Shown piece by piece: positions 7,422-32,902 of a stretch of 32,902 bases of DNA. Each line of letters begins with the position of its first letter. The first letter of the stretch is position 1. This DNA is from an uncultured Rubrobacteraceae bacterium (lineage in GTDB: Bacteria > Actinomycetota > Rubrobacteria > Rubrobacterales > Rubrobacteraceae). The notes beneath the pieces were generated by a model. The model did no database searches. It was given only the letters and a program-made list of their open reading frames with translations, and was not told where the DNA came from. The stretch spans positions 1 to 32,902 of the forward strand of contig CADCVD010000089.1 in the NCBI GenBank assembly GCA_902806055.1, given 5' to 3'. Position numbers and translations under genes: made by a program.

Positions 7422-8603
7422 ATGACCGACGTGTTCGTTGTTAACGGAGCCCGAACTGCCTTTGGCTCCTTCGGGGGCGGCTTGAAAGATGCGACGGCTC
7501 ACCACCTCGGGGTGGCGACGGCGAAGGGGGCGTTAGAGCGTTCGGGGCTGGACGCGAGCAAGGTGGACAACGTGGTGATGGGTAACGTCATACAGGCCCA
7601 CGAAGGCGCTCCTTATCTCGCCCGTCATGTGGCGCTGGACGCCGGCGTTCCGATTGAGGCCCCGGCCCTTACCCTGAACCGGCTCTGTGGATCGGGGCTT
7701 CAGGCCGTTATCTCCGCGACGCAGTCCATAAAGCTCGGCGAGTCGGAGATCGGCCTGGCTGGCGGGGCGGAGAACATGAGCCAGGCCCCCTACGTCTCGC
7801 GCAAGGCTCGCTTCGGCATCAGGATGGGGAACGACGTGCTCGTCGATACCTTGAGCGAGGCCCTCACTGACAACCGCGCGGGTTGCGGCATGGGCACGAC
7901 CGCCGAGAACCTTGCCGAGAGATACGGCATAACCCGTGAGGACCAGGATGCCTTTGCCGCCAGGAGCCACCAGAGCGCCACCCGTGCCACCGAGAGCGGA
8001 CGTCTGGCTGAGGAGATCGTCCCGGTGACGGTAAAGAGTCGCAAGGGCCCGGTAGAGATAACCAGGGACGAGCACATCCGGGAGGGCGTGGACCAGGAGG
8101 CTCTCTCAAACCTCAGGCCTGCCTTCAAGAGGGACGGCGGCACCGTGACGGCGGGGAACTCATCGGGCATCAACGACGGCGCCGCAATGCTGTTAGTCGC
8201 CTCCGAGAACGCGGTGAGCGAGGAGAGCCTGGAACCGATGGGCCGTGTCGTGAGTTGGGCCGTGGCGGGCGTTGACCCGAACATCATGGGCATAGGACCC
8301 GTACCGGCCTCACGTCTCGCCCTCAAGCGGGCGGGTCTCTCTCTTGACGACATGGACCTCATCGAGATCAACGAAGCCTTCGCCGCCCAGTACCTAGCCT
8401 GTGAGGAGGAACTCGGCCTCGACCGCGAGAAGGTGAATGTAAACGGGGGAGCGGTAGCCTTCGGCCATCCGGTAGGGGCTAGCGGGGCTCGCGTGCTTCT
8501 TACCCTTCTCTACGAGCTGAAGCGACGGGAGAAGAAGTACGGCCTCGCCTCCCTGTGCATCGGTGGAGGTCAGGGCATAGCGATGGTCGTCGAGGCGGTC
8601 TAG
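7422..8603 (+). CDS. Acetyl-CoA acetyltransferase (thiolase), candidate PhaA/AtoB
   Basis: Thiolase catalytic motifs NRLCGSGLQAV, GGAVAFGHPVGASGARV and CIGGGQGIAM; RBS-like AGGAGG upstream. Confidence 0.95.
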   Translation: MTDVFVVNGARTAFGSFGGGLKDATAHHLGVATAKGALERSGLDASKVDNVVMGNVIQAHEGAPYLARHVALDAGVPIEAPALTLNRLCGSGLQAVISATQSIKLGESEIGLAGGAENMSQAPYVSRKARFGIRMGNDVLVDTLSEALTDNRAGCGMGTTAENLAERYGITREDQDAFAARSHQSATRATESGRLAEEIVPVTVKSRKGPVEITRDEHIREGVDQEALSNLRPAFKRDGGTVTAGNSSGINDGAAMLLVASENAVSEESLEPMGRVVSWAVAGVDPNIMGIGPVPASRLALKRAGLSLDDMDLIEINEAFAAQYLACEEELGLDREKVNVNGGAVAFGHPVGASGARVLLTLLYELKRREKKYGLASLCIGGGQGIAMVVEAV

Positions 8604-12200: not shown

Positions 12201-13028
12201 GTGAAGGTGACAGAAGGGTCTGAGTACCGGGCAAGCATGGATCCGACGGGGCTTTGGAGGCAGTGGTACGAGACGAGCTCTAAGATGTGGTCGAACATGC
12301 TGGGGGGTGATAAAGAGGCTTACATGGACCCTTTTGGTCTTTACCGGCAATGGTTCGGCAACCTGCAGGGGGCTCAGAAGCCGTCTGAGGGATCTGTGAA
12401 CTCCCAGGAGATCTGGCGTCAGTGGACGGAGGCGACGACCGAGGCCTGGCGCAGAGCCTTCGGTATGGGGACGGTCCTGGCGGGGCTCGTCCCGCATTGG
12501 GCGGAGATGTCCGAAGAGGTTCGGAAGCAAATGTTCCAGGGGGGCAAACTCCCCACCGACCCGCTGGACTTCTATCTGAGGTTGTACAACGCCACGAGCG
12601 GGCCTCTCTCGAAGATGATCCGGGAGGTCCTTGAAGACGAGTCGTTCCTGGAGAATTCGCGCCGCTTTCTTGAGGGCTACGCGAGCCTTGAGAAGACTTT
12701 CCAGGAGGCTGCCGAGGAGTACTTCGGTTACCTTCAGCTCTCCACCCGCTCCGACAGCACCCGGTTGGCGGGGCTCGTCGTCGGTCTGGACGCCAAGGTC
12801 GACCGCGTGGAGGAGGCGTTCGAGGAGTTCGAGCATGGTTACTCCAGACCGGCTACGGCCGAGAGCGTGGAAGCACTCGGGGATCGGATGGAGGAGTTGG
12901 AGAGGAAGCTGGAGGAGAACCGCTCCGGTCTCGAACGAGTAGAGGGTAAGCTGGATCGGCTGCTCTCGGCTCTCGGCGCCGCTGCCGATGGCGGCTCCGA
13001 AGCGGCCGGCTCGCAGGAGGAGATCTAG
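12201..13028 (+). CDS. phaE: PhaE-like subunit of class III polyhydroxyalkanoate synthase / phasin-like protein (start probably GTG 12207)
   Basis: Immediately upstream of PhaC. Repeated DPxGL[W/Y]RQW motifs, helical amphipathic body and C-terminal coiled coil. Confidence 0.72.
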   Translation: MKVTEGSEYRASMDPTGLWRQWYETSSKMWSNMLGGDKEAYMDPFGLYRQWFGNLQGAQKPSEGSVNSQEIWRQWTEATTEAWRRAFGMGTVLAGLVPHWAEMSEEVRKQMFQGGKLPTDPLDFYLRLYNATSGPLSKMIREVLEDESFLENSRRFLEGYASLEKTFQEAAEEYFGYLQLSTRSDSTRLAGLVVGLDAKVDRVEEAFEEFEHGYSRPATAESVEALGDRMEELERKLEENRSGLERVEGKLDRLLSALGAAADGGSEAAGSQEEI

Positions 13029-13146: not shown

Positions 13147-14211
13147 ATGACCGAGAGAAGCGTCACACCCTCGGGCGGCGAGGACCTGTTTGACAAGTAC
13201 GCCAAAGGGATCAGGATAATCGCCGAGGGAGCTCAGATCGACACTGGCCAGACCCCCAAAGAGGTCGTCTGGACCAGGAATAAGGCCAAGCTCTACCACT
13301 ACGAGACCGATGTTGAGAAGAAGCACCCGGTTCCTATCCTCTTCATCTACGCGCTGCTTAATCGTCCGTACTGCCTCGACCTGATACCGGGCAACAGCTT
13401 TATCGAGTTTCTGGTAAACGAGGGCTTCGACGTGTACCTGCTCGACTGGGGCATCCCGGGTCCCGAGGACAAGGACATGTCCTTTGAGGACTATGTCCTC
13501 GATTACATGCCCCGGGCGGTGCGCAAGGTCCTGAGAATCTCTGGCACCGAGGAGTTGACCCTCTTCGGATACTGCCAGGGCGGCGTGATGGCCGCCATGT
13601 ATGCTTCTCTCCTCCCCGAAGGGCTGAAGAACCTGATCCTGCTAGCCACGCCCATCGATTGCTCGCCGGAGAACTCGGGACTCTACGGGCAGTGGTTCAG
13701 CGAGAAGAACCACGATCCAGACACCATCACGAACGCCTACGGGAACCTGCCTTCGAGGTTCGCCTACGCGGGAACAGCCATGCTAAACCCGGTAACCAAC
13801 TACATCGGCACCCACGTAACCATGTGGGACCTTCTCGTGCGAGACGGCCTCTCGGATTCCTGGCTGGCGATGAACAAGTGGGCCGACGATCCTATACCGA
13901 TGCCCGGGGCTGCTTACAAGCAGTGGGTTCAGGACTTCTACCAGAACAACAAGCTCGTCAAGGGGGAGATCAAGCTGCGCGGCCGCCGCGTAGACCTCTC
14001 CAACATCAAGATGCCGATGCTGAACCTCGCCGGAAAGAAGGACCACCTTGTCTTCTTGCCTCAGGCCGAGGCCGCGATGAACCTCATAGGCAGCGAGGAC
14101 AAAGAGTTTATCGTCCTGGATGCCGGGCATGTAGGGCTGCTGACCGGCCGGGGGGCGAGAAAAAACCTGTGGCCGCAAGTAAGAGATTGGCTAGAGCCTC
14201 GCTCAAAGTAA
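13147..14211 (+). CDS. phaC: Class III poly(R)-hydroxyalkanoate synthase subunit PhaC
   Basis: Lipase-like box GYCQGG; NRPYCLDLIPGNSFIEFLVNEGFDVYLLDWG; LDAGHVGLLTG; 354 aa, class III size. Confidence 0.95.
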   Translation: MTERSVTPSGGEDLFDKYAKGIRIIAEGAQIDTGQTPKEVVWTRNKAKLYHYETDVEKKHPVPILFIYALLNRPYCLDLIPGNSFIEFLVNEGFDVYLLDWGIPGPEDKDMSFEDYVLDYMPRAVRKVLRISGTEELTLFGYCQGGVMAAMYASLLPEGLKNLILLATPIDCSPENSGLYGQWFSEKNHDPDTITNAYGNLPSRFAYAGTAMLNPVTNYIGTHVTMWDLLVRDGLSDSWLAMNKWADDPIPMPGAAYKQWVQDFYQNNKLVKGEIKLRGRRVDLSNIKMPMLNLAGKKDHLVFLPQAEAAMNLIGSEDKEFIVLDAGHVGLLTGRGARKNLWPQVRDWLEPRSK

Positions 14212-27891: not shown

Positions 27892-28016
27892 ATGAGCGAG
27901 ACCGAATCATCCGGTGCCCGCGGCTGGCCACGCAGCACCGCCATTATCGGTGCCGGAACGATGGGTCTGGGTGTGGCCGAGAGCTTCGCCGTTGCTGGCA
28001 CGGCTGTGCGGCTCAC
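27892..28016 (+). pseudogene. N-terminal fragment of a 3-hydroxyacyl-CoA dehydrogenase-like Rossmann protein
   Basis: RSTAIIGAGTMGLGVAESFAVAGTAVRLTG matches the family N-terminus; homology is lost after about 40 codons. RBS-like GAGGAG upstream. Confidence 0.6.
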
Positions 28017-28379
28017 CGGGGCGGCCACGGTTATCCCGGTACGCCCCCGCGGCAGCCGTGGGTCTCCCCGGCCTACCCTCCGGGCTAGGGAGACACCGCC
28101 ACTGCTACGATATCGCCACCTGTGCTCTCCAGGCTACCGAGCACGGCGCGCAAGGCTGGCGGGGCGTTGTCGTACCTTGCACTGATCGAGCCCTACTGCA
28201 ACCGCACTGCAATCCGCCTTTGCCAGGCCATCTCCACACCCCTAACAGCTCTGTCAGAACCACACTAGCTGGCATCTTTGCGGACTTCTAATTCGCGGGT
28301 CGCATGGGCAGTTCGCGAACAAGTGTCGAAAGGGGCACAGACGCGGTCCAACCACGAGTCCTTAGGAAGCACCCAGGAG

Positions 28380-28673
28380 TCAATATTCCTCTACCTCTAC
28401 CGCCTCGACGATGCACGTCTGCGGCTCGCCGCGCAGGGCTGGCGCTGCCTCCCGCGATGACCAAACGTTACGCTGTAGGGCGGCTAGAAAAGACTCCGCC
28501 TCGCTTGAGCTGTCAAACTCAAGTTCGATAATAACGTAGTTCGGATCGTCAGTGGGTTGGAGGACTCGGTAGCGGCGCACGCCTGAGTGCTGTCTGAAGT
28601 CGGCAAAGCTGTCGAAGGCCCCCTTCCAAGTGTCGAAGTCGCTGACTGGATGTTCGATCTGTAGGTGATGCAT
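28380..28673 (-). CDS. 97-aa dimeric alpha-beta barrel (ABM-like/cyclase-like) protein, trimmed start
   Basis: MHHLQIEHPVSDFDTWKGAFDSFADFRQHSGVRRYRVLQPTDDPNYVIIELEFDSSSEAESFLAAL; ATG preceded by GGAGGAGAAG. Confidence 0.75.
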   Translation of the reverse strand: MHHLQIEHPVSDFDTWKGAFDSFADFRQHSGVRRYRVLQPTDDPNYVIIELEFDSSSEAESFLAALQRNVWSSREAAPALRGEPQTCIVEAVEVEEY

Positions 28674-28851
28674 CTCTTCTCCTCCTTCCTCCCGCTTCCT
28701 GAAGGCGGGTAGTAACCTTTTCCACCATACGCACGGTACTAGTGAGACCTGCGTCGCAAGGTAATCGCAGGGAGATCGAGGTCCTCGCGCGGCGATGTCC
28801 ATCGCTCCGGGTGCCTGTCTGTTCGGTATGAGTCTCTCCTCCGCCACTCGC

Positions 28852-29334
28852 TTATCTCACTGATTTCCGCTTTTCGTCCCTCTCCCGTAATAAAGAGAAG
28901 AAGCAGTAGGCCACAACGAGAGCAGCGATCATCGAAGGCAAGTGGAAGAGGTAGTCGATGTAGATCATCCCTTGCAGGTTATTCGGGCCGTTGTGGACGT
29001 GCATGTTGATGTGCGGCCACCAGGAGACCATCAGGTAGGCGATAGAGAGGTACATAGCCCACGCCCTCACCCTCGAGTCTGGGGAGATTCTACGCATCAC
29101 GGACAGCCCGAAGGCGAGGAAGGAAACCCCCAACCCCAGGACCGTGGCCTGCACCAGATTGAGGAAGAGCAGGAAGGGGATCTGGGTGGCGCTGGGTGAT
29201 GGGTTCCCCTCGGCGGGGGGCCAGATGATGGGGCCCATCATAAAGGCCGCAATCCCGACGAGGACGGTAACCAACAACACCTTGACCCACGAAGTCGTTC
29301 GAGTATGTATTTCGTTTATCGCTTTGGCCGACAT
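28852..29334 (-). CDS. Small integral membrane protein (about 4 TM) with a His-rich segment, unknown function
   Basis: Four hydrophobic stretches; WWPHINMHVHNGPNN between TM3 and TM4; RBS AAAGGAGAA upstream of ATG. Confidence 0.78.
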   Translation of the reverse strand: MSAKAINEIHTRTTSWVKVLLVTVLVGIAAFMMGPIIWPPAEGNPSPSATQIPFLLFLNLVQATVLGLGVSFLAFGLSVMRRISPDSRVRAWAMYLSIAYLMVSWWPHINMHVHNGPNNLQGMIYIDYLFHLPSMIAALVVAYCFFSLLRERDEKRKSVR

Positions 29335-29422
29335 ATGTATTCTCCTTTCTCCCGACTGCTCTGCTCTTACGTTAGCTTCGTTTTTGGGAGTTGCATATTC
29401 CAGAAATCTGTAATTCTCGCGT

Positions 29423-29451
29423 TTGAGCGGATCGCAAAAGCGATGTACGAT
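29423..29451 (+). promoter_or_regulatory. Candidate promoter of the LuxR regulator: TTGAGC - 17 bp - TACGAT with a dyad in the spacer
   Basis: -35 at 29423-29428, -10 at 29446-29451; ATCGC-AAAA-GCGAT at 29431-29444. Confidence 0.5.
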
Positions 29452-29491
29452 ACAAAATCAGGAGTGCTAACCCCAATGGAAGCGTAGAGCC

Positions 29492-30598
29492 ATGAGTCCA
29501 AGCGCTGTTGTTGAGGAGCGGGTCTTCAGCGAGATCAAGCGTCTGTGCCTCTCTGGTCTCGACGAAACGACTCTGCTCAGGGAGGTGGTCGCGCGTCTAC
29601 GGCACGCGGTGCCAATCGATACCTATCGGGCTCTAAGGATTGATCCCTTGAGTGGACTGCCCACGGGCTCGTTCACCGAAGAGCCGGACCAGCCGGTCAG
29701 GGCGCACTTCTTCCTCGAGCACATCTACTTTGAGGACGACGTGCTCGAATTCAACTGGATGGCGCGAAACCGGCATCCGGTAGCCCTGCTCTCAGAAGCC
29801 ACCGGGGGCCACCTCGAGCGCTCCCTGCATTGGCGGGAGTTCCTGGGCCCCGAGGGCTTTGGGCATGAGGCGCGCGGCGTTTTCACCGTAAGCCAGGAGC
29901 TTTGGGGCGCCATCTGCGCGATACGGGAGAGAGGCCGCCCCGACTTTAGCCCACGCGAGGTCACCTTCATGCGTCGAATCGCTCCACACCTGGGCGCCGG
30001 GTTCAAAGCAGCGGCGCTTCGCTCTCAGGCTTCTCCTGAGGACAATGGCGGAGGAGCCCCTGGAGTACTGGTCCTCCACCAGCGGGGTCGGGTCTTGCAC
30101 TACACAGAAGCCGCCGAACGCTGGCTAAGAGACTTAGGAGACCTTGGTCCTGGGTGGCGGGAAGGCGACGGCCTCCCGACGGTAATATGGTCGGCGGTAG
30201 GGGCGTTGCGCCGAGCACTAAGACCGCAGACGGAGCGAGATCGAGCCAGCGTCCCACGCGTCTGCGTGCGGGCGCGATCCGGCCGGTGGCTAACGCTGCA
30301 CGCTTCCTTGAGCGAGTCGCAGCATCTCAGCAGCCCGGGCGAGACGGTGATCGTCATCGAGCCGGCCGGGTTTAAAGAGATGGCGTGGCTGCACACGACC
30401 GCCTACGGTCTGAGCCCCAGGGAAGAGGAGATGGTCGGGTTCGTGGTGCGTGGCGCTTCGACCCGGCAGATCTCGCAAGCCCTCTACGTTACCGAGGACA
30501 CCGTCCAAAAACACCTCCAGAACGTCTTCGAGAAGGTCGGCGTGCGTAGCCGCCAGGCGCTCGTCAAGCGGCTCTATCTCAATACCATCTTCCCGTAG
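29492..30598 (+). CDS. LuxR-family transcriptional regulator (C-terminal HTH)
   Basis: YGLSPREEEMVGFVVRGASTRQISQALYVTEDTVQKHLQNVFEKVGVRSRQALVKRLY. Confidence 0.92.
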   Translation: MSPSAVVEERVFSEIKRLCLSGLDETTLLREVVARLRHAVPIDTYRALRIDPLSGLPTGSFTEEPDQPVRAHFFLEHIYFEDDVLEFNWMARNRHPVALLSEATGGHLERSLHWREFLGPEGFGHEARGVFTVSQELWGAICAIRERGRPDFSPREVTFMRRIAPHLGAGFKAAALRSQASPEDNGGGAPGVLVLHQRGRVLHYTEAAERWLRDLGDLGPGWREGDGLPTVIWSAVGALRRALRPQTERDRASVPRVCVRARSGRWLTLHASLSESQHLSSPGETVIVIEPAGFKEMAWLHTTAYGLSPREEEMVGFVVRGASTRQISQALYVTEDTVQKHLQNVFEKVGVRSRQALVKRLYLNTIFP

Positions 30599-30840
30599 TC
30601 CTTCGATAAACGCCGCCAGAGAGGTTCTCGTTGCCGGGGTCGCCCAACCGGTCCTAAGTAGGTCCTGCGGCAGCCGGTTGCACTGCTACTGGCTCCCGAC
30701 GCTCCCCAGGTGCCCAGAAGCTTCTTCGGTACGTGGCTCTGAGCCTCTACCTGCTTATATAGCCAGAAAACCTACCAAGCTTGTATGCTCTGGCGCATCC
30801 CCCATATGGCGTATTCTTGCTGCCGCACTGGGGACGCAGG

Positions 30841-30872
30841 CGGATAACGAACTTTGGAGAGTTCGTTATCCG
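30841..30872. repeat. 13-bp perfect inverted repeat, 6-nt loop
   Basis: CGGATAACGAACT-TTGGAG-AGTTCGTTATCCG. Confidence 0.8.
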
Positions 30873-31238
30873 AGACTGTCTGAAGGAATATCGAGAGGGC
30901 TTCTCGACTGTGCGTTGTGGGCGGTGCACAATGTCTCGGCGAGGTACGGGAACACCGTAGAGCAAACAAGCGTGCGGCTGCCAATACCGGAGTACCGGGC
31001 GGAGCAGCTACGGCTATCCCGGGGGTGCGAAGAGCCCCCCGCTAGCCCACCGCCTCGAACCGCAAGCGCTCACCTCTCTCAGACTCAAGCGTGGCGCGGA
31101 CGACGAGCCCAGGCGCTCGCGCGCTTTGCATATCCATCCGTCGACGCTACATCTTGTGGGCGAGGTCTGGTTTCGTAGGGTGCCGCTCACGACAAATTAG
31201 CTACACCGAGGCGAGTTGTATGCGCCCTTCTGAATATA

Positions 31239-31281
31239 GGTTTCGGAGAAAACGTCTTCGCGGCAACCTAGTGAACAGAGG
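31239..31281 (+). repeat. 43-bp dispersed repeat, copy 1
   Basis: GGTTTCGGAGAAAACGTCTTCGCGGCAACCTAGTGAACAGAGG; 36/43 identical to the copy at 32043-32085. Confidence 0.8.
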
Positions 31282-31284
31282 GCG

Positions 31285-31419
31285 CTAGTATCCGCCGCCG
31301 CCTCCTCCGGTGTCCTCGCCACCCTCACCGCCACCACCACCACAGGCGGTGAGGAGCAACGCCAAGGCGGTCGCTACCCCATAGGCGGCGCCCAGCTTCA
31401 GGAACTTCTTTCGACTCAT
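31285..31419 (-). CDS. 44-aa predicted lipoprotein/lipopeptide
   Basis: Below the ORF-track cutoff. MSRKKFLKLGAAYGVATALALLLTACGGGGGEGGEDTGGGGGGY*: basic n-region, hydrophobic h-region, lipobox LTAC; RBS-like GGGGGAA upstream. Confidence 0.65.
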   Translation of the reverse strand: MSRKKFLKLGAAYGVATALALLLTACGGGGGEGGEDTGGGGGGY

Positions 31420-31433
31420 CAGTTCCCCCTCTC

Positions 31434-31610
31434 TTATTCCACTCCGAACCACCTACGCCGCCACCAACCCCGACGCTCTACGCCCTCCTGAGCCTCTCCA
31501 ACGTCCGCGGGGGTGTCTCTCTCTGGCCACTCTGCATCTTCGTTGGCGCTCTCCGGGGCTTGTGGGGTCTCTGTGAGGGCCTCAAGTTGCCTACTCAGCT
31601 CGTCGCTGGA
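31434..31610 (-). other. In-frame coding-like tail after the stop of the 74-aa protein (58 codons, no canonical start)
   Basis: Minus-strand frame continues after TAA (31611-31613): SSDELSRQLEALTETPQAPESANEDAEWPERDTPADVGEAQEGVERRGWWRRRWFGVE*. Confidence 0.5.
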
Positions 31611-31835
31611 TTAGAGCGGCTCGACCTCCGCCGGTCTGATCCAGTTGACGATCTGCCAAGGGTAGAACACGGTGCGCCGGTAGTCCTTGTCGTCCCTTTT
31701 GACGATGAACGCAACGACGATGCCAGCGTCGTTCACCTCCTTGAGTTTCCCCGCAGCCTCTTCCGGGATGTCGGTACGGATGCTTACCTCTACTTCGTCC
31801 CCGATCCACTTCTGGGGTATCTCTTTCTTCGCCAC
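31611..31835 (-). CDS. 74-aa small protein, likely SH3/Sm-like beta-barrel, unknown function (GTG start 31835)
   Basis: VAKKEIPQKWIGDEVEVSIRTDIPEEAAGKLKEVNDAGIVVAFIVKRDDKDYRRTVFYPWQIVNWIRPAEVEPL; GGAGGA 4 nt before GTG. Confidence 0.65.
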   Translation of the reverse strand: MAKKEIPQKWIGDEVEVSIRTDIPEEAAGKLKEVNDAGIVVAFIVKRDDKDYRRTVFYPWQIVNWIRPAEVEPL

Positions 31836-32042
31836 GCTCTCCTCCGTAGTTCGCCTGAATCCTTGGGGCATCGTACCCACGCTCGCGGACTTCCCACCCC
31901 GTAGACTCGTTTACCTACCGACCGGCTCCGCGCCCGTCCTGGGTAATCCTCGCGCCGCTGCGGGCAAGAAAACAGGCCGGAGAAGCGGGGGAGTGGGAAA
32001 GCAGTCGCCGGCCTCAATGGGGGCCGGAGATATCAACAACTG

Positions 32043-32085
32043 GGTTTCCGAGAAAACGTCTTAGCGGCAATCCGCTGAATAGAGG
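32043..32085 (+). repeat. 43-bp dispersed repeat, copy 2
   Basis: GGTTTCCGAGAAAACGTCTTAGCGGCAATCCGCTGAATAGAGG. Confidence 0.8.
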
Positions 32086-32248
32086 CAACCCAGCCCTAAC
32101 TTAAAACTCTATGCGTAGCGTCTTTGGACTTTTGTTGTTAACCACTTCACGTAGCCGATGTTTTGGCTACATCTAGATGCGGTATGAACATAGCGTACGA
32201 AGCAAGTGCTTATTAACTAAGACAGCGAAGAGGAGACGAGCTACTACT

Positions 32249-32863
32249 ATGGATCAGCAGCAGGTACAGAACATAAACCAGGCCAGCGAAGAGCTAACCG
32301 ATTCGGCCAAGCGGGCGTTTCAGACAGCCGCCGATAGGACTGTTTCTCTGCAGGAGAGCAACCTACGGCTCACTCAGAACTTCTTCCAGAACTGGATCCA
32401 GACCCTCCACAGCCAGACCGAGGGTAACCGCCAGGCGGCCCAGACGGTTCAGGAGCAGAGCGATCGCCAGCAGCAGGCTCTGCAGACCCTTACCCAGGAG
32501 TCCACGAACGTCTACTCTGAGTTCTTGAACTCTGCGTTGTCTTTTTACCAGGAGACGTTGAGGTCTGCGACTCAGGTAGCGCAGAACAACATGCAGGCTG
32601 CGAGCCAGGCGACCCAGCAGGGAGTGCAGGCAGTGGGGCAGGCGGCCCAGCAGAGCGTGCAGGCGATGAGCCAGGCTGCAAGCCAGAACGGACAGGCTAC
32701 CGGAGAGGCTGCGCAGCAGGCTGCCCAGACGGCTAACCAGACCGCCCAGCAGAACCAGGAGGAGGCCAACCAGGCTGCTCAGGAGGGCGCTGAAACCGCC
32801 AAGCGGACGGGCAGAAGGTCCTCCACTGCGGACGAGATAATCGAGGTCAAGGAAGGTTCATAA
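32249..32863 (+). CDS. A/Q-rich hendecad-repeat protein, phasin-like/LEA-like (trimmed start MDQQQVQNINQ)
   Basis: 204 aa; helical NFFQNWIQTLHSQ...YSEFLNSALSFYQETL segment, then 11-residue repeats rich in Ala/Gln. Confidence 0.78.
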   Translation: MDQQQVQNINQASEELTDSAKRAFQTAADRTVSLQESNLRLTQNFFQNWIQTLHSQTEGNRQAAQTVQEQSDRQQQALQTLTQESTNVYSEFLNSALSFYQETLRSATQVAQNNMQAASQATQQGVQAVGQAAQQSVQAMSQAASQNGQATGEAAQQAAQTANQTAQQNQEEANQAAQEGAETAKRTGRRSSTADEIIEVKEGS

Positions 32864-32902
32864 GTAAAGGCCAGGGCTTCCGAGAATACTCAACACCGGA
32901 GG

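Follow-up and report, generated by a model that had tools for sequence, protein, structure and literature searches.

A phasin-like gene at the end of the contig

The last gene on the contig, and of the window (the whole 32,902-nt stretch of Rubrobacteraceae DNA analyzed here), encodes a protein of 204 amino acids whose reading frame and translation are exactly those given in the initial annotation. By alignment the protein is 78%-88% identical to its orthologs, and it is made up of a core, a tail of 11-residue repeats (hendecads), and a short C-terminal end (Table 1). The core, the sole region common to the window protein and to its short paralogs in alignments, consists of two long, Gln-rich, amphipathic helices (residues 3-57 and 61-113). 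AF2 models of the full-length protein and of the core contain helices only, at low confidence (pLDDT 66 and 57). To judge from the aligned DNA, the partly conserved region immediately upstream is likely to hold the promoter and the ribosome-binding site.

Table 1. Coordinates of the window features discussed in the text
Feature	Position	Strand	Basis or remark
PhaA-like beta-ketothiolase	7422..8603	+	TIGR01930, 494.8 bits, over cut-off
PhaE/PhaR-like PHA synthase subunit	12201..13028	+	TIGR02132, E = 4e-10, under cut-off
PhaC, class III-type PHA synthase	13147..14211	+	TIGR01836, 354.5 bits, cut-off 365.3
Second copy of dispersed-repeat core	31242..31266	+	
Dispersed-repeat core TTCCGAGAAAACGTCTTAGCGGCAA, upstream of gene	32046..32070	+	Homology to L008, an ortholog locus, has its left limit here
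5' region with TCTAGATGCGGTATGAATATAG and an AGGAG box, in part shared by orthologs	32170..32248	+	DNA alignment
Phasin-like protein with hendecad tail, 204 aa	32249..32863	+	Start ATG at 32249, kept in orthologs (MDQQQ...)
Phasin-like core, residues 1-109	32249..32575	+	Alignments, low-confidence AF2
FYQETLRSATQ, closing stretch of core helix 2, sharing the hendecad register	32543..32575	+	
Seven hendecads, residues 110-186	32576..32806	+	Consensus A-[AT]-Q-Q-x-[AVM]-Q-A-A-x-Q; Gln stripe c, g, k, d
C-terminal end TGRRSSTADEIIEVKEGS and stop	32807..32863	+	

Periodicity and helix geometry of the tail

The initial annotation had divided the second half of the protein into eight 11-mers with a 33-nt DNA period, and had named a period test without a significant 11-residue signal as one result that would refute it. 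Over the 88 residues concerned (99-186; 32543-32806) we find a significant 11-residue signal: identity is 0.429 at lag 11 (Z = 7.0) and 0.424 at lag 22 (Z = 6.5), and the lag-11 value was matched by none of 5,000 shuffles at any lag from 2 to 44. The N-terminal part, residues 1-98, gives no signal at lag 11 (Z = -0.3). Tandem Repeats Finder independently reports the 33-nt period, at 32592-32676. All 88 residues are in register, but the true hendecads number seven rather than eight, since the first unit, FYQETLRSATQ, closes core helix 2 and is conserved in tail-less paralogs; the hendecads run on from the core without any break of register.

A Fourier scan of the window protein (0.5 degree step) places the hydrophobicity peak at 98.5 degrees, compared with 98.2 for an 11/3 helix. 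Among 11 homologs the peak lies between 98.5 and 99.5 degrees, with P < 0.005 in ten and P = 0.076 in one that is truncated by its contig. The tail thus has the 3-11 geometry of the 11-mers of perilipins and apolipoproteins. On an 11/3 wheel, positions c, g, k, and d (196-295 degrees) form a single stripe in which about 45 of 64 units carry Gln, while a, i, b, and f are Ala, Val, Met, or Thr, and small residues or Asn occupy e and j. The apolar face takes up six of the eleven positions (h-a-e-i-b-f) and is mostly Ala, Gly, and Ser; Gln fills the opposite face.

A modular family in the Rubrobacteraceae

Homologs are present in all 40 Rubrobacteraceae genomes searched, with up to 17 per genome. 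The core consensus has near-invariant residues at Q35, N38, Q43, L53, Q56, Q74, A77, L81, Y89, and Y100. Many members consist of the core alone (108-145 aa, without any 11-mer), and the longer ones carry 4 to 11 hendecads. We rejected the idea that the tail is confined to this genus: related hendecads, with more charged residues but an unchanged register, occur in several other genera (for example, ATQQGLEATEQ VARQGLRATEQ ATKQGLRVAEE in genome G025, against ATQQGVQAVGQ in the window).

Some of the longer members end in a domain of about 55 residues (YDxLNVxEV..RLDxLSxxEL..VRxYExxNKNRxTLIxQIDR) that matches the NCBIfam model NF033649, LipDrop_Rv1109c. This domain occurs in several paralogs (L007, L012, L028, L169, and L174); E-values range from 2e-8 to 5e-6 in the first three and from 3e-7 to 4e-3 in four proteins of other genera, and paralog scores of 17-34 bits lie far under the cut-off of 110. 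Other members end in an E3_binding domain (PF02817, 2e-9). The window protein has no match to NF033649, and its C-terminal TGRRSSTADEIIEVKEGS takes the place of the Rv1109c-like or E3_binding domain found in some paralogs.

Within the same genus, domains of the E3_binding (peripheral subunit-binding) type are also fused to PhaE (L008:4248-5432) as well as to phasin paralogs (L057:3535-4431 and L166), possibly as a docking module on the granule. One paralog in the genome of the window (L051; contig C163, 207-926) is missing its first 15 residues and is joined to an HTH protein. A TAG stop interrupts it at the first hendecad, past which the frame is open through the tail and C-terminal domain; this is either a pseudogene or an assembly error.

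Linkage to PHA biosynthesis genes

One mark of a phasin is a gene in or beside those of PHA biosynthesis, and this is where homologs of the window gene lie. In 21 genomes (G000, which is that of the window, G001, G003, G005, G007, G010-G016, G018, G022, G024-G027, G032, G037, and G038), short paralogs are located 46-703 bp from phaA/phaB. They are paired and directly adjoin phaA, with just one of the two on the contig in some drafts; acetoacetyl-CoA reductase-type genes are on the other side, and several genomes have phaE and phaC next, at a distance of 5-8 kb or less. In five genomes of the genus to which the window DNA belongs (G030, G031, G036, G037, and G038), hendecad-tailed members, or contig-truncated cores of that subtype, are found 0.04-1.4 kb from phaE/phaC, in many cases with divergent transcription.

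The initial annotation had suggested a granule-coating protein and pointed to the PHA synthase in the same window. The suggestion is well supported by the homologs beside phaA/phaB and phaE/phaC in many genomes, but not by the synthase itself, as the window phaEC genes are 18 kb away. Since the window gene lies at the contig end at that distance, its own linkage to pha genes is by homology only; the paralogs in its own genome (contig C47) sit within the pha cluster.

Searches against known families

We scanned 53 family members against 24,736 Pfam models. The commonest weak match is Phasin_2, in 17 of the 53 (best E = 9e-4, under cut-off), followed by PhaP_Bmeg in six and PHA_gran_rgn in three. 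The window protein matches none of Phasin_2, Phasin, PhaP_Bmeg, and PHA_gran_rgn, and no phasin model of Pfam or NCBIfam exceeds its cut-off in any protein scanned. Profile-profile comparison with hhalign gave null results against six Phasin_2 proteins from plasmids (probability 1.4%), against a haloarchaeal hypothetical protein encoded beside phaE, and against PhaE; a PDB sequence search and a Foldseek search with the full-length model found nothing. A distant kinship of the family with Phasin_2 is possible. The weak Phasin_2 matches and the null profile-profile result lead us to call the protein a phasin by context and physics.

The HMM comparison proposed in the initial annotation did not place the protein, which has no Phasin_2 hit in Pfam and no LEA_4 or apolipoprotein match there even at E-values up to 10. 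We likewise rejected membership of the LEA, perilipin, or apolipoprotein families, as there is no such match in Pfam (E up to 10) or NCBIfam. The window protein belongs to a family for which neither Pfam nor NCBIfam has a model.

Comparison with known coat proteins

Phasins are helical, often form coiled-coil tetramers, and have amphipathic helices presumed to rest on the polymer (PMC5658603, PMC4117528). Like the phasins (PhaP; PF09361 Phasin_2, PF09602 PhaP_Bmeg, PF05597, and PF09650), the family to which the window protein belongs is Ala/Gln-rich and found in pha clusters, with many weak, sub-threshold matches to Phasin_2 and PhaP_Bmeg. The window protein itself is small, all-helical in the low-confidence AF2 models, and amphipathic in its periodicity. 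It differs in that the core is followed by in-register hendecads, with optional C-terminal domains in the family, and in that no phasin model passes its curated cut-off. The PhaF-type phasins of Pseudomonas similarly join a granule-binding N-terminal part to a repetitive C-terminal tail (PMC3574117), but the tail of PhaF is rich in Lys and binds DNA in histone-like fashion, whereas that of the window protein is made of uncharged Ala/Gln hendecads.

The tail is close in build to perilipin 4, which has 11-residue repeats in 3-11 geometry, near-zero aromatics, and a low hydrophobic moment. The hydrophobic fraction is 0.36 in the window tail (28/77) and 0.35 in perilipin 4, the aromatic fraction 0 and 0.002, the charged fraction 0.09 (7/77) and 0.15, and the moment 0.19-0.23 and 0.257, respectively (perilipin 4 values from PMC5889406, Table 1). 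The differences are in length (77 residues vs. about 968), in the polar side (Gln vs. Thr/Lys/Asp), and in the surface, since PHA is not triglyceride; the resemblance is convergence, not homology. Perilipin 4 relies on length-dependent weak contacts to coat droplets, and its stable packing needs polar-face residues that include a conserved Asn/Gln pair (PMC5889406, PMC8064757). A fragment of 66 perilipin 4 residues does not bind droplets, and 132 are needed (PMC5889406).

Predicted role at the granule and alternatives

Rubrobacter accumulates PHA to 50% of dry mass and has class I and III synthases; the genome study that reports this names no phasin gene (PMC8146576). In view of the genomic context of its family, the window gene most likely encodes a PHA-granule coat protein. 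We further infer, as the probable arrangement, that the core binds PHA and that the tail lies on the granule as an 11/3 helix in the fashion of perilipin 4; that the tail is perilipin-4-like in role as well as in build seems to us about evenly balanced. The core of about 110 residues, with its two long amphipathic helices, would bind the PHA surface and oligomerize in the manner of phasins. We propose the core as the main anchor because 66 perilipin 4 residues alone are insufficient, so that a tail of 77 residues may be too weak by itself. The tail would turn its Ala, Val, and Met residues to the polymer and the Gln stripe toward water and neighboring helices. It would thereby widen and stabilize the coat through weak contacts in large number, much as perilipin 4 uses its 11-mer helix on lipid droplets.

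The protein could also be a phasin whose tail serves oligomerization instead of lying on the surface, as a coiled coil of Ala/Gln hendecads or as a rod holding the core at a distance from the cytoplasm. Coiled-coil tetramers are common among phasins (PMC4117528), the hendecad is a classical coiled-coil period, and in related proteins 11-mers join the core to a C-terminal domain. An apolar face of six positions in eleven is, however, wider than a coiled-coil stripe and mostly Ala, Gly, and Ser, and Gln covers the whole opposite face; neither point is decisive, and we consider such a tail unlikely, though a serious alternative.

A coat for neutral-lipid droplets (triacylglycerol or wax ester) instead of PHA granules is improbable. 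The C-terminal domain of several paralogs does match mycobacterial LipDrop_Rv1109c, but the window protein has no such domain and the linkage is to phaA, phaB, phaE, and phaC. The desiccation role that the initial annotation had entertained fares worse. In its favor, repeats of 11 residues are a feature of LEA group 3 proteins, and Rubrobacter resists stress. Yet there is no LEA_4 match even at E-values up to 10, few tail residues are charged, and the polar face is Gln rather than the Lys/Glu of LEA group 3; moreover, genes of the family are linked to pha genes, and short proteins without any 11-mer are found among its other members, which leaves a LEA-type stress protein very improbable.

No more probable is a neutral low-complexity expansion without function, in spite of the variation in hendecad number among homologs (about 5 to 11): Comparison of the window gene with four homologs gives the tail a dN/dS of 0.06-0.11, on a par with the 0.06-0.08 of the core, and neither the register nor the Gln stripe has been lost. 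Selection on both parts is strongly purifying, and the repeat is therefore kept as protein, not as a DNA repeat.

A PHA-granule coat of the kind preferred here gives the PHA-rich Rubrobacter a candidate phasin family that is present in every genome examined. We suggest tentatively, as an idea somewhat short of an even chance, that bacteria, independently of the perilipins, came to coat storage granules with a long amphipathic helix of 11-mers, with repeat number tuning a weak, length-dependent binding to PHA. The family would then be modular, with a phasin-like core, 4 to 11 hendecads, and then nothing, an Rv1109c-type domain, or E3_binding. A literature search for work uniting phasins, perilipins, and amphipathic character turned up a single, unrelated paper. 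If the tail works like perilipin 4, the length-dependent "Velcro" model of coating becomes testable in bacteria and on a different material, and hendecads could serve as short, uncharged, tunable tags for bioplastic particles.

A dispersed repeat beside the gene

The repeat whose core lies upstream of the gene is intergenic and partly palindromic (consensus GGTTTCCGAGAAGACCTCTTAGCGGCAATCTGGTGAATAG). It has about 40 copies in the genome of the window and up to 20 in four congeners, against none with a reversed-pattern control. Copies form same-strand series with a spacing of 0.4-2.5 kb (located on contigs C63, C62, C145, C101, C114, and others of the window's genome, and on C57, C79, and C96 of G038). 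The stretch from one window copy to the other (31246-32082) has a 93% identical counterpart in contig C63 (L118:5674-6515), both ends being exactly at repeat cores, and its flanks are unrelated (identity 0.56 and 0.52, vs. 0.55 at random). This pattern suggests that the repeat bounds cassette-like units with integron-like behavior. A canonical integron was rejected as the explanation, as there is no integron integrase over cut-off and no GTTRRRY core, and no recombinase that would explain the repeat was found. In Rfam, the sole match within 28000-32902 is a weak c-di-GMP-II riboswitch on the reverse strand at 30664-30757 (27.5 bits vs. a gathering threshold of 53.5).

A second, GCATATCTATCCA-like motif occurs exactly 113-114 nt before the repeat core at five loci (L095, L096, L098, L102, and L111). 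It looks complementary to the 3' end of the repeat core, GGTGAATAG, and the two may possibly form a larger structured element. The contig itself closes (32876-32902) with a further half site resembling the repeat, GCTTCCGAGAATACTCAACACCGGAGG, some 12 nt past the stop codon, and the assemblies of several relatives also break in or beside phasin-like genes.
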